From Pseudomonas mandelii (GTDB lineage Bacteria > Pseudomonadota > Gammaproteobacteria > Pseudomonadales > Pseudomonadaceae), in contig NZ_LT629796.1 in NCBI RefSeq assembly GCF_900106065.1, forward strand, positions 6,362,501 to 6,426,500: DNA of 64,000 bases. Direction: 5' to 3'. Shown here piece after piece: positions 59,972 through 64,000 of this stretch. The translations under genes and the position numbers were made by a program. The notes beneath the pieces were generated by a model. The model ran no database searches. It saw nothing but the letters and a program-made list of their open reading frames with translations, and had not been told where the DNA came from. Within the stretch, counting starts at the first letter, position 1, and every line of letters starts with the position of its first letter.

Positions 59972-59978
59972 CTTTTTT

Positions 59979-60040
59979 GTAGCAGCTGCCGAGCAGCGCG
60001 AGGCTGCGTTCGGCTGCGAAGCAGTCGTGAAATCAGGCAA
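59979..60040. repeat. REP-like sequence, family D
   Basis: GTAGCAGCTGCCGAGCAGCG... GGCTGCGTTCGGCTGCGAAG: an imperfect inverted repeat of a type common between Pseudomonas genes, eight bases after the alkC stop. Confidence 0.6.
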
Positions 60041-60064
60041 CGGGTTCTTTCAGGCAAACCGCGT

Positions 60065-60253
60065 TTACTGGCTTGCAAAGACCACGTCCTCAAACGCAGC
60101 CTCGCCCTGCTCGTCAGCCGCTACACATGCAGGCTCTGATTGCATGTTAAGTAAATCCACCCCGCTGTCTCCAAACCCATCTTGCCAGCACATCAAAAAT
60201 GGCAGCATCGCCGGATGGTCGCGCCTTATTTTGTCTTTTTCGTGGGCGTACAT
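60065..60253 (-). CDS. Possible small protein, doubtful
   Basis: A 62-codon frame (ATG at 60253) overlapping the 3' end of the next gene by 28 bases in another frame. Its composition (acidic tail EQGEAAFEDVVFASQ) looks moderately protein-like but no ribosome site is present. It may be coding by chance. Confidence 0.25.
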   Translation of the reverse strand: MYAHEKDKIRRDHPAMLPFLMCWQDGFGDSGVDLLNMQSEPACVAADEQGEAAFEDVVFASQ

Positions 60254-60402
60254 CTGGTGTGAACAGCGAGCTGCCCCTGCCCGACTTCTTCCTTGAGCTG
60301 TTCAGCTGCGTACTGACATGCCTCCAGATTCTCGTACTCAGCATGATCAATCGATGCAACGGGCGACGCGCCGCTAAGAACGACCCAGAGAATGTACTTC
60401 AT
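60226..60402 (-). CDS. Small unknown protein with N-terminal hydrophobic segment
   Basis: A 58-residue protein with a very good ribosome site (CGGAGG, five bases before ATG). The N terminus KYILWVVLSGASPVASIDHA may be a signal or membrane anchor; EYENLEACQYAAEQLKEEV is an amphipathic helix and the tail HTRCTPTKKTK is basic, with two cysteines. Similar short proteins are frequent in Pseudomonas accessory DNA (recollection). Function unknown. Confidence 0.6.
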   Translation of the reverse strand: MKYILWVVLSGASPVASIDHAEYENLEACQYAAEQLKEEVGQGQLAVHTRCTPTKKTK

Positions 60403-60753
60403 GATGCCTCCGATGCTATTAGAAGTGAGGGAGTCTACCTGTGGATTGATGGCCATGGCATAGGGGGCATTAGCTAGGCAAAGTGGTGTCTGGAGTCACG
60501 AAGCAAACAAAAGAGGACGGTGGGATTTTTTCATCCCATTTTTGAAATACTTCCGACACCGTCACGAAGAATCACCCAAAATTTCAGATCACCAAAGTCC
60601 ACCAATGAACCTAAGCGAATCGATTGACGAAAGCTACTTTACAATTCCACTGGACAGTACACAGGCAGGAGCATTAATTTTGACTACGTGCTCCTAACGC
60701 TTTGTCTATTTATCGACTAGCTTTAGGATGTTCAATATCGTAAGGAGAAGTAT
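60403..60753. other. A+T-rich intergenic region
   Basis: About 350 bases. It holds a repeat copy at 60506-60545 and a 30-codon frame (60605-60697, MNLSESIDESYFTIPL...) without ribosome site that may be a gene remnant, followed by an AGGAGCA / TGCTCCT inverted pair. No convincing gene. Confidence 0.45.
60506..60545. repeat. Degenerate palindromic element, copy 1
   Basis: AACAAAAGAGGACGG, a GGGAT / ATCCC hairpin with T-rich loop, then CCATTTTTG. It matches 61327-61362 after one three-base gap and resembles the left arm of the perfect palindrome at 63209. Confidence 0.7.
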
Positions 60754-61314
60754 ATGGTACCAATTTATGAACAGGGCTCAGGTAAAGGCATAGGTCACAG
60801 CGTAGAATCTTTTTTAGCAGAATTCCAGAAAATAGCCATTGAGCATATTGAAACAGGCCGAGCAAAGTCTATAGCTTTTGTTTTTTATGACTTCAACAAT
60901 CGTGACTTTAAGAAAATCCTTAAAGATCAAGGTGTATTCGTAGAACTAGATCGCCTCAGCGGAAAAGAGCTTAGCGTTTTTTATATGCATTCAGGAAGTG
61001 ACGCGGTACTGAGGACATTTAACTCTACCCTCCTGACTATGCTAGGCGTCGAAGACCAAGTTAGAACTCCTTGCTTAGTATTTTGCAAAGTAACACCTGA
61101 AGGATTTACTGATGCATCAACTGCCAATCTTAATAGTGCCAACCTCATACATGGATTCCATGAACTTTATGGCGTGATCGAATCCTATATCAAAGGAGAA
61201 AAAATTGACCCCGACTCAAAATACATTAGATGGACGAGAAGCTCATCTAAATTCATAAGCCTAGAAGCGATCAAAGCTCTTATAAGAGAGCTTTTAAGAG
61301 GAGGAATGTTTTAA
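60754..61314 (+). CDS. Unknown protein, possible partner of the HNH-ATPase
   Basis: A 186-residue soluble protein, in clearly A+T-rich codons unlike the core genes. TAAGGAG precedes the ATG. It shows alternating strand/helix pattern: SVESFLAEFQKIAIEHIETG, AKSIAFVFYDFNNRDFKKIL, KELSVFYMHSG, VRTPCLVFCKVTPEGFTDAS, and a C-terminal helical region with LIHGFHELYGVIESYI. I recognise no domain and see no catalytic motif. It is 112 bases upstream of the HNH-ATPase gene in the same direction, and is flanked by two related repeats. Confidence 0.75.
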   Translation: MVPIYEQGSGKGIGHSVESFLAEFQKIAIEHIETGRAKSIAFVFYDFNNRDFKKILKDQGVFVELDRLSGKELSVFYMHSGSDAVLRTFNSTLLTMLGVEDQVRTPCLVFCKVTPEGFTDASTANLNSANLIHGFHELYGVIESYIKGEKIDPDSKYIRWTRSSSKFISLEAIKALIRELLRGGMF

Positions 61315-61326
61315 CTCCTACCTAGA

Positions 61327-61362
61327 AACAAAAGGGGACGGATTTTTTAACCCACTTTTTGT
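61327..61362. repeat. Degenerate palindromic element, copy 2
   Basis: AACAAAAGGGGACGG, GATTTTTT, AACCCACTTTTTG; directly repeats copy 1 on the other side of the 186-residue gene. Confidence 0.7.
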
Positions 61363-61426
61363 ACGCTTAGCAAGAACGACTCCACTCTCTTTTTTTATTA
61401 TTTTATTTTGCAAGGAGTATATACAC

Positions 61427-62716
61427 TTGGGCCAGCCTCAGGAAAAGTCTAGGATAGAATTCAAATCTAAAGTGCGAGCCACTCTATTTAATAGGGCAGG
61501 AGGAAAATGTTCTGTTCCTCGGTGTAAAAATCCCACCGTAGGTCCCTTCGAGGATAATGAGGGGGCAGTTAATTTAGGTGTTGCATGTCACATATATAGC
61601 GCTGCCGAAGATGGGCCCCGAGGCAGAGGGGGTAAGTCGGATGAGTTCATCGGCAGTGACGCCAATGGCCTATGGTGTTGCCCATCTCATGCATCGTTAA
61701 TAGACAAGCAGAAAGGAAAAGATTACCCAGCGAATGTTCTGTTTGCCTGGAAGGCATTAGCTGAGGCTCGAATTCGCAAGCAAATTACAGATGCACCCTC
61801 TCCGCTCGGATGGGTCGATTCAATTGAATTTGTAGAATTTGACGGTATTCGGACACCACCTAAAGTTTCATTATCTAGAAACACACTGTTCTTTGGCCCT
61901 AACTGTAGCGGGAAGACTTCTCTCATGGAGGCAGCGGCATCAGTTAGCGATTCTCGGCATGGTGAGAGATTTAGTGGACGCATCTATCATGGTCGCCCAG
62001 CCAAGTATAAGGCACTAATTAAATACTCGACCGTAGATACTCTTAGCAAGACTATTGAGATCCAGATTTGCGGTGAAAACTTAGTGCGCCAGGAAGGTGC
62101 TACCCCATGTTTGTTACCACCCGGAGATCTCGAGATTATTTTTTGCTCAGAGAGAGAGACACGGTATAAGCCCCATGAGGACCATGTGGATTTCCTGATG
62201 CGATACCTGAACATCGACAAAAGTGCTTTGTTCGCCCTCACAAAAGTAGGTGGCGGAAACTTACTGCCAGGCGAGATTGTATTCACGCAAGCTATTGACA
62301 TTGAGTACGACGATGATGATGAGGAGATTGAAAAGAAGAGATATAAGATCGATGACTCCCCCTTCATGGAACTTAGGTTTAAGCAGGCCCACGGCGAATA
62401 TTGGGTGGGACTGGATAATCTTTCAACTAGTGAGCATGCAAGACTTCTGCTAGATCTGGCCATCACTAAAGCTAAAGAGACCTGCAAGCAAAAACTAACG
62501 TTGCTTCTCATTGACGGTTTGCTTTTTAATCTAGATCAGCGCAACTTCGAGGTCATATTGAATGTTCTGACTGAAAGTGATTTTCAAACCGCGCTAAGCC
62601 TACCACCTTACAGAGAGGCAGACGTCCTTGATCGCGGCGCAGGAGAGGTGAGTTTAAAAAAATTTGCCTATCTAGAGGCTTGGCGATTGGCCATTCTTAA
62701 ACGTTCCGAACCGTAG
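61427..62716 (+). CDS. HNH-nuclease-like domain fused to an ABC-type ATPase
   Basis: A 429-residue protein with a TTG start, chosen because AAGGAG lies 10 bases upstream and no better start exists. Residues 17-115 look like a zinc-linked HNH domain: C28/C33 in CSVPRC, H55 in ACHIYSAA, N80 in DANGLW, C84/C85 and H88 in WCCPSHASLID. Residues 145-390 are an ABC/AAA-type ATPase: Walker A GPNCSGKT (157-164), a signature-like LSTSEHARLL (332-341), Walker B TLLLID (358-363) and D-loop FNLD. Walker B lacks the usual Glu (Gly364 instead). An acidic stretch DDDDEE lies near 295-300. HNH plus ATPase recalls Septu (PtuA/PtuB) but in one chain. Likely nucleic-acid defence; unproven. Confidence 0.8.
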   Translation: MGQPQEKSRIEFKSKVRATLFNRAGGKCSVPRCKNPTVGPFEDNEGAVNLGVACHIYSAAEDGPRGRGGKSDEFIGSDANGLWCCPSHASLIDKQKGKDYPANVLFAWKALAEARIRKQITDAPSPLGWVDSIEFVEFDGIRTPPKVSLSRNTLFFGPNCSGKTSLMEAAASVSDSRHGERFSGRIYHGRPAKYKALIKYSTVDTLSKTIEIQICGENLVRQEGATPCLLPPGDLEIIFCSERETRYKPHEDHVDFLMRYLNIDKSALFALTKVGGGNLLPGEIVFTQAIDIEYDDDDEEIEKKRYKIDDSPFMELRFKQAHGEYWVGLDNLSTSEHARLLLDLAITKAKETCKQKLTLLLIDGLLFNLDQRNFEVILNVLTESDFQTALSLPPYREADVLDRGAGEVSLKKFAYLEAWRLAILKRSEP

Positions 62717-62761
62717 CAGAAGCAAATAATCTTATCGGAGCGTAATCATCTATGATGAACT

Positions 62762-62793
62762 AAAAGGGGCATCAATTAGCCGCCCCCTTTTCT
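62762..62793 (+). terminator. Terminator of the HNH-ATPase gene
   Basis: AAAAGGGGC paired with GCCCCCTTTT, 11-base loop, then TTTTCTCT. It lies 46 bases after the stop. Confidence 0.75.
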
Positions 62794-62850
62794 CTAATAT
62801 TCGACGAGTAATATGGAAGGTTCTGTTAGGGTTTTTATTTTTTCATGTTA

Positions 62851-63036
62851 TTACAGTTTATCGGAAGAATTACTCCACCCGCCATTACATCCACACGTAC
62901 AACGCCCTCCAGGCGGATGATTCCATTTCCCCATAACGTCGCTCCAAGCCGGAGGTGAGTTTCGTTCAATTGAGACTGGGCGGGGGCGATTCGCTTCAAC
63001 AGCACGTTTATAATCTTCCACCTCTTTATTACTCAT
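62851..63036 (-). CDS. Small cysteine-containing unknown protein
   Basis: A 61-residue protein with a strong AAAGGAG ribosome site 8 bases before ATG. The N-terminal half is charged and helical (SNKEVEDYKRAVEANRPRPV); the C-terminal half has GGRCTCGCNGGW, a possible metal site. A+T-rich. Convergent with the HNH-ATPase gene. No recognised family. Confidence 0.6.
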   Translation of the reverse strand: MSNKEVEDYKRAVEANRPRPVSIERNSPPAWSDVMGKWNHPPGGRCTCGCNGGWSNSSDKL

Positions 63037-63464
63037 TTTAAAACTCCTTTCGTTTGTTGGGCCTCTATTATTTCTCTATTACTTAACCTGAGACACTGTC
63101 AGAAATAACAGGCCTTAGAAACACTTTCTAATAAGCAAGCTATTTTTTATTACTTAACTCGAGAAAAGAACAAAAAAAAGGCAAAAAAAATAGGCAAAAA
63201 AGGGGCAAAAAAGGGGACAGATTTATTTTTAGAAAATAAATCTGTCCCCTTTTCTCTTGTCCCCTTTTCTCTTTTTCTCTTTGTCTTGGCCTTGCGAGGC
63301 TGGGTAGATGACTTGGCCGGACGCATACCAAAAAACTGTACTTTGCGTCGTTCGTCTGGGGGCGATTACAGCTTGGCGACGGGCAGCATTCGGCCAAAAG
63401 CAGCCATTCGGCTGGATCTTTCGACCCTTTCCGGTCCCCCGTGTCTGCGAGCTAAAGCCATTTC
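63037..63464. other. Repeat-rich gap
   Basis: About 430 bases. A T-rich promoter-like stretch lies at 63060-63180. The perfect palindrome and tandem repeats are at 63182-63280, then GC-rich sequence (63290-63460) with GGCAGCATTCGGCC. No gene supported on either strand. Confidence 0.5.
63209..63253. repeat. Perfect 21-bp palindrome with 3-base loop
   Basis: Left arm AAAAGGGGACAGATTTATTTT (21 bases; key core GGGGACAGATTTA) and exact complement at 63233-63253, loop TAG. It is followed by a direct duplication of TGTCCCCTTTTCTCT at 63243-63257 and 63258-63272. This GGGGACAGATTTA element type is widespread in diverse bacterial genomes (recollection). Confidence 0.85.
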
Positions 63465-63788
63465 TTAGCGTCCGAGTGAGGGCGGCCCATAGAGCTCGGT
63501 TTCCCAGTCTTCAAGAGGCGGCGTTACTTTGAAAGATGGGTCGCAGTATGACCTTAAGTAATCAGTCGCTCTCCTTTGGGCGTAGGTGAAATTGAGCACG
63601 TTGCCTTCGCTGTCCATCTCTATTACGTTCGCGAATATCGCGAAGACCATCTCAATTGCACTCGGCTCAGATCCATAAATGTCGAGGTACTCTACGTTTT
63701 CAAGCATGTAGTGGCTTCCACTTGCCATGAAGTACGCAAATGTTCGGAGTGCTCCACTGAAATCATTACTTAGCTTCTTCATGTACAT
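63465..63788 (-). CDS. Small protein of unknown function (DUF7677-like?)
   Basis: A 107-residue acidic protein: LSNDFSGALRTFAYFMASGSHY, SAIEMVFAIFANVIEMDSEGNV, YAQRRATDYLRSYCDPSFKV, PPLEDWETELYG. The pattern looks like short conserved Pseudomonas proteins recently listed as DUF7677 (uncertain recollection). Such acidic single-domain proteins in repeat-rich islands often are immunity proteins, but no toxin gene is inside the window. The ATG at 63788 or at 63782 may start it; the ribosome site is weak. Confidence 0.55.
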   Translation of the reverse strand: MYMKKLSNDFSGALRTFAYFMASGSHYMLENVEYLDIYGSEPSAIEMVFAIFANVIEMDSEGNVLNFTYAQRRATDYLRSYCDPSFKVTPPLEDWETELYGPPSLGR

Positions 63789-64000
63789 TTTCTTTTAGTA
63801 AATATTCTGGATTTAACTGCTTCATAATCAAGCATCTGCTTTTTTGCCGTTTTATTGTGGTCGAGACAGGCCCGAACCGATCCAAAGCGGCCCTTCGCGA
63901 AAAGCAGCTAATAGCCATTTCATCGAGATGTGCAGCAAATGCCCAGTAGTAGACAGAGTGCGCTTAGGTGGATTCGTCATTGTTTTTGGAGGTTCTGGCA

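Follow-up and report, generated by a model that had tools for sequence, protein, structure and literature searches.

The window analysed here is a stretch of 64,000 nucleotides from Pseudomonas mandelii (6362501-6426500 in a genome of 7.04 Mb that forms one contig). Toward its end lie two genes on the forward strand: one encodes a 186-residue protein from an ATG (60754-61314), and the other, 112 bases further on, encodes a 429-residue protein from a TTG (61427-62716). A preliminary description of this DNA had proposed this layout, and its coordinates, like its numbering of residues H55 and K163, proved correct. An AAGGAG ribosome-binding site (61412-61417, forward strand) stands 9 nucleotides 5' of the TTG; the reading frame is open from 61298 and contains no ATG 5' of the TTG. 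The longer protein begins with an HNH domain (residues about 9-121, 61451-61789, with the H55 codon at 61589-61591) and continues into an ABC ATPase head of the SMC/Rad50/RecF type without a long coiled coil (residues about 126-424, 61802-62698). All of its motifs are likewise read on the forward strand: Walker A, GPNCSGKTS (residues 157-165, 61895-61921), and the ABC signature, LSTSE (residues 332-336, 62420-62434), both supported by their conservation among 120 homologues, and Walker B, LLLIDG (residues 359-364, 62501-62518), with glycine at the catalytic position.

This 429-residue frame is a genuine conserved gene, with an N-terminal Cap5-type HNH domain and a C-terminal SMC/Rad50/RecF-type ABC head, and its product is a member of a large unnamed family. 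We found 157 homologues, scored among the 8000 best candidates, and the protein is 44-68% identical to the 119 other homologues listed. The predicted structure has a pLDDT of 91.8, and sequence, profiles, and model are concordant in placing both domains in one chain, as had been suggested; both folds were further confirmed by their structural neighbours.

A variable site and an unpaired neighbour

The preliminary description had called this DNA A+T-rich, and it is: the GC content is 0.43 over 60500-62800 versus 0.602 (standard deviation, 0.021) in 2-kb windows of 1-58000. We fetched eight relatives in which the left anchor, which is a gene for DNA-alkylation repair, is 75-78% identical. Five of the eight also have a right anchor, with other genes in the interval, and neither window gene occurs in any of the eight stretches fetched. 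The window locus is a variable site.

Repeats are a feature of this site. REP-like repeats of the form GGGGACRG flank each of the two genes, with one forward-strand copy 5' of the 186-residue gene (60505-60544; repeat families D4 and D6), another between the genes (61326-61361; D4, D5, and D6), and a downstream REP-like palindrome with perfect 21-nucleotide arms (63209-63253; inverted pair I2). A 21-base form of the repeat has 16 genome sites at no more than 3 mismatches, versus none for the reversed control; the short core AAAGRGGACRG shows no enrichment (17 sites versus 12). Because the repeat is absent, at up to 4 substitutions, from the 20 genome loci of the HNH family, we regard it as local to this genome's site and not as a family feature. 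Such repeats may mark how single genes get shuffled. Elsewhere in the genome (L063, 8251-9066), inverted copies flank a 255-residue ORF that, as read from the sequence, resembles a REP-associated Y1 transposase. The window also holds a 148-base palindromic element after the DNA-alkylation gene (59978-60125; 33-nucleotide arms, 91% complementary), further copies of which occur in relatives, G020 and G002 among them. No Rfam match to a structured RNA was obtained in 60000-64000, and shuffled versions of the intergenic strand fold just as well as the strand itself (z, 0.33).

Could the two genes form one system, with the 186-residue protein as an accessory or sensor of the HNH-ABC protein, as the preliminary description supposed? 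They share a strand, lie 112 bases apart, are both A+T-rich, and each occur in a single genome out of 398 of the genus, in both cases the window's own. The shorter gene is itself conserved (220 homologues of 340 candidates scored) and encodes a protein with a thioredoxin-like fold. Nonetheless, its homologues are found at none of the 20 HNH-family genome loci and at none of three viral (L055 to L057) and two plasmid (L070 and L071) loci, among which are the 17 other loci with a full-length HNH-ABC gene, some of the loci in this check being short contigs (L003, 3.6 kb; L015, 4.1 kb; L056, 6.6 kb). Conversely, three other loci of the 186-residue family (L053, L054, and L067) lack an HNH-ABC gene, and in the window the genes are separated by a REP-like repeat and by the second gene's own ribosome-binding site. 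We therefore find a two-gene system very improbable. The two genes are not conserved together in these loci, an outcome that the preliminary description had named as refuting; it counts against the pair and not against the nuclease, and the 186-residue gene looks like a mere neighbour outside the proposed nuclease system.

The family of this neighbour has no name. The protein matches no family in Pfam, PADLOC, or NCBIfam, its best PHROG match is no better than an E value of 0.06, and it has no match in the plasmid and phage collections; a Pfam scan of 58 family members gave one-member matches only (E value of 0.055 or worse). Profile matches in the PDB were mainly to designed proteins and were disregarded. 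Based on its surroundings at L067 (2708-12433), where a 184-residue relative accompanies an Avs2 gene, unnamed genes of 267 and 358 residues, and an integrase-like ORF, the family is a candidate defence-island cargo family. At L053 (1-2512), a member follows an integrase and an 84-residue ORF near an apparent tRNA-dihydrouridine synthase gene.

Genes beyond the window's end raise a further reading. A PAAR-like protein, a 260-residue likely effector, and a tandem pair of related 118-residue genes that may be duplicated immunity genes were read from the sequence 0.7 kb past the window end (L059, 9179-11476), so that PAAR-like genes lie 2.0 kb downstream of the HNH-ABC gene, as might be expected if the latter encoded a type VI secretion nuclease effector. 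However, an ATP-binding head would be odd for a delivered toxin, and inspection by eye revealed neither a PAAR gene beside the relatives nor an adjoining immunity gene; we find this reading hardly credible.

A constrained nuclease and an eroded ATPase

What had been described as an HNH-like cysteine/histidine module is a true HNH domain. H55, N80, C85, and H88 are invariant across the 120 aligned homologues; C28 and C33 are found in 105 and 106 of them, with the remainder being gaps. Across 24 wider sequences, H55 and N80 are universal and H88 is kept in 23. PADLOC profiles of CBASS HNH effectors match residues 7-120 at an E value of 1.1e-19, and profiles and structural neighbours both assign the domain to the Cap5 type. 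At six other loci (L018 to L021, L068, and L069), a similar module leads into another kind of C-terminal part that lacks a Walker A motif, as in the lysogenic-conversion ORF2 of phage P2-EC46. To judge from these sequences, different C-terminal domains seem to have been combined with the HNH module by exchange.

The ABC head presents a different picture. Its nucleotide-binding motifs are well kept (G162 in 120 and K163 in 117 of 120 homologues; S335 in 112 and E336 in 110), and the Walker B acid at 363 is divided between D (58 homologues) and E (62), the window protein having D363. The Walker A (GK 162-163), signature (LSxSE), and Walker B (D363) elements noted previously are thus all present, but the usual catalytic glutamate is replaced by glycine. 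Position 364 is D in 52, G in 33, S in 16, N in 6, E in 4, and other residues in 9 of the 120. In the region expected to hold the switch histidine (391-393, directly after model strand 387-391), only 1 of 120 homologues has a histidine, and columns 395-399 have one in 2 to 7 homologues each. In a wider set of 18 sequences whose ABC head is complete, the window's included, 4 have E364, 4 have a switch histidine, and 3 (L013, L016, and L070) have both. In short, the protein has the Walker A, signature, and Walker B elements of an SMC/Rad50/RecF-class ABC ATPase on an ABC fold, with weak hydrolysis residues.

Because H55, N80, and H88 are kept while E364 and the switch histidine are mostly absent, the nuclease residues appear tightly constrained and the hydrolysis residues do not. 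ATP turnover is thus probably weak in the window protein, and, since erosion has affected the hydrolysis residues and spared the binding motifs, the likelier signal is occupancy by ATP and not its turnover. Even binding may be dispensable in some members, since the Walker A lysine is lost in L006 and L007. We considered reading the loss of the catalytic glutamate as a dead ATPase throughout the family and softened that view: 56 of 120 homologues have an acid at 364 (52 D and 4 E), and the RecF of this same genome has D-D at the end of Walker B. By analogy, an acid at 364 may be sufficient in those members that have one.

The closest structural neighbours of the head are those of RecF, Rad50, and SMC proteins, and a profile comparison aligns the protein with the RecF of this genome over 61 columns at a probability of 87%. 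Together with the DNA-alkylation repair gene upstream, these likenesses suggest a repair enzyme in which a RecF/SMC-like head guides the HNH nuclease to gaps or damage in DNA. Against this, the HNH-ABC gene is sporadic and not core, the genome has a RecF of its own, and the alkylation gene is a site anchor that is present in relatives without the HNH-ABC gene. We consider a repair role quite improbable. Membership of the RecF family itself was rejected (TIGR00611, 30.9 bits against a cutoff of 172, versus 357.7 for the true RecF of this genome), and the relation in fold was retained.

Sporadic relatives in mobile and defence-gene surroundings

The HNH-ABC protein is sporadic and not core. With 4 candidates scored per genome, the full-length protein was found in the window's genome alone among 398 of the genus; 44 of these genomes gave any match, and in the other 43 it was confined to positions 1-131 of 431, that is, to the HNH part. 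In a phylum sample, 9 of 398 genomes match at 1e-10, again at full length only in the window genome and over just the HNH part in the rest. A pattern scan found 20 HNH-family loci on genome contigs and 3 on viral contigs (L055 to L057), one of which shares neighbours with L002. The plasmid collection yielded 123 matching records, none covering 80% of the query (L070 and L071 are the plasmid relatives), and the phage collection yielded 5. The frame is open at 17 loci other than the window (L002 to L007, L009 to L014, L016, L056, L057, L070, and L071), shortened at L008, and interrupted at L015.

The preliminary description had suggested a defence role for the protein. No defence system was recognized beside the window's own copy; its relatives do lie in mobile and defence-gene surroundings. 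At the Caballeronia locus L004 (7622-11278), DzbA (E value, 5e-149) and DzbB (2e-72) are directly upstream, with DzbB ending 39 bases before the HNH-ABC start, and the gene may travel with some Dazbog loci. At L007 (Paraburkholderia), a DUF4297 protein (3e-125) and HerA (5e-273) are upstream. Locus L009 carries a type I restriction R subunit (E value, 0), a ThsA-like SIR2 protein (3e-14), and a weak TIR match; neighbours at L008 and L013 match PDC-S06 and PDC-S28, respectively; L071 has a HEPN-Swt1 protein (PDC-M34B, 2e-8); and L002 has a helicase with generic ZorD/DpdE matches. The PADLOC scan behind these assignments covered 24 proteins from 13 loci, a minority of the neighbours and several of them picked by eye as defence-like. 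Matches at an E value of 1e-20 or better occurred at 6 of the 13 loci (5 without the generic helicase of L002) and at none of the other 7; among 10 ordinary window genes used as a control, none reached that level and 1 reached 2e-10. The association of the relatives with defence genes is good, and it is not a statistic.

Mobile elements are equally part of these surroundings. At L005, an integrase is directly upstream of the HNH-ABC gene, and a TrbL gene is also present. At the viral locus L056, the order is tail fibre, fibre assembly, HNH-ABC, and sheath, the order of a P2-type tail, and we take this position to be the known P2 Z/fun cargo spot because the "Z-region" record of P2-EC46 holds an HNH ORF, a shorter protein with the same module annotated as lysogenic conversion. 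The assignment is further supported by the statement that P2-like phages carry anti-phage systems (PMC13182921).

Does the protein then serve the element rather than the cell, as a nuclease for maintenance or competition (homing or the exclusion of rival elements)? Relatives beside an integrase, on viral contigs, and on plasmids are consistent with this idea. On the other hand, relatives are also chromosomal and adjoin host defence systems, and to our knowledge homing enzymes usually lack an ABC head, which counts against it. The two notions also overlap, given that prophage exclusion systems are both. On balance, we regard a purely element-serving nuclease as unlikely.

A proposed mechanism and its known counterparts

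In total, the presence of both domains in one chain, the conserved HNH and ATP-binding motifs, the sporadic occurrence, and the prophage, plasmid, integrase, and defence neighbourhoods are the grounds for a single-gene reading. We judge it somewhat probable that the 429-residue protein is a single-gene nuclease against mobile elements, most likely phages. We posit that the N-terminal Cap5-type HNH domain would be the effector and that the ABC head, standing in the place of Cap5's SAVED domain, would be the sensor and dimerization switch. Two heads would sandwich ATP head-to-tail and thereby position a pair of HNH domains; the cue that signals infection (falling nucleotide pools, a structure in the phage DNA, or a protein of the phage) would alter this dimer, and the altered dimer would release cleavage of nucleic acid, with ATP occupancy, rather than turnover, gating the nuclease. 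Candidate substrates would be phage DNA, host DNA, or tRNA. Transfer RNA is reportedly the substrate of one Septu system. More tentatively, and only as a possibility, we speculate that the family could represent an unnamed, widespread class of immunity conferred by a single protein, in which a nearly hydrolysis-dead ABC head reads ATP occupancy and infection empties or distorts the ATP-clamped dimer, freeing the Cap5-type HNH domain. If so, this class would be one product of a modular HNH cassette whose C-terminal partners include SAVED, ABC, and other domains. The eroded hydrolysis motifs yield a sharp, testable prediction on nucleotide sensing.

Fused ABC-nuclease defence proteins are already known; it is the pairing of HNH with ABC for which the databases scanned (Pfam, NCBIfam, PADLOC, and PHROGs) have no separate family name. 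Pfam and NCBIfam gave generic ABC/SMC matches below their cutoffs only, PADLOC and PHROGs matched the HNH part, and some homologues are labelled generically as SMC_N or AAA. The PADLOC candidate family PDC-M68A shares the HNH domain (window residues 15-124; E value, 5e-17), with only positions 8-116 of its 253-position profile matched, and PHROGs 21516, 34329, and 29098, of unknown function, likewise match only the HNH part (residues 7-130; 8e-16 to 6e-11). Searches under the name PDC-M68 and under names for HNH fusions with ATPase, ABC, SMC, or AAA found no paper; the pairing may already be listed in the 2020 survey of ABC ATPases by Krishnan et al., which PMC12137116 cites.

Among characterized systems, OLD is likewise a single-polypeptide ABC-nuclease defence, described in PMC13096335 as ABC plus TOPRIM. 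Its nuclease is TOPRIM, as is that of Gabija GajA, whereas the window chain ends with the ABC head and has an N-terminal HNH domain as its sole other domain. A further analogy is that ATP inhibits GajA (PMC10952713). The heads of RecF, Rad50, and SMC proteins share the ABC fold, to which the window protein adds a nuclease domain, and it is not a core gene. Septu, with which the preliminary description had drawn a comparison, pairs a PtuA ABC ATPase with a PtuB HNH protein (also in retron-Eco7); according to PMC13096335, Walker A/B and H-N-H mutants of a Septu system each lose immunity. The functional analogy stands, but the family match does not: Septu has two chains where a single ORF here encodes both domains, the HNH domain of the window protein is a Cap5-type one, its ABC head is matched equally well or better by those of RecF, Rad50, and SMC proteins, and PtuA and PtuB profiles are missing among the 25 of 29 PADLOC matches listed for the window protein. 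Cap5, the HNH-SAVED effector of CBASS, has an HNH domain of the same type, and the difference lies in the C-terminal part, since the top HNH-SAVED profiles of PADLOC match no further than about residue 120 and residues 126-429 fold as an ABC head. If the proposed reading is true, the protein would be the one-gene equivalent of ATPase-HNH systems built from two components, of a size that suits direct biochemistry, and one HNH effector module would have been swapped between sensors of cyclic nucleotides (SAVED) and of ATP (ABC).
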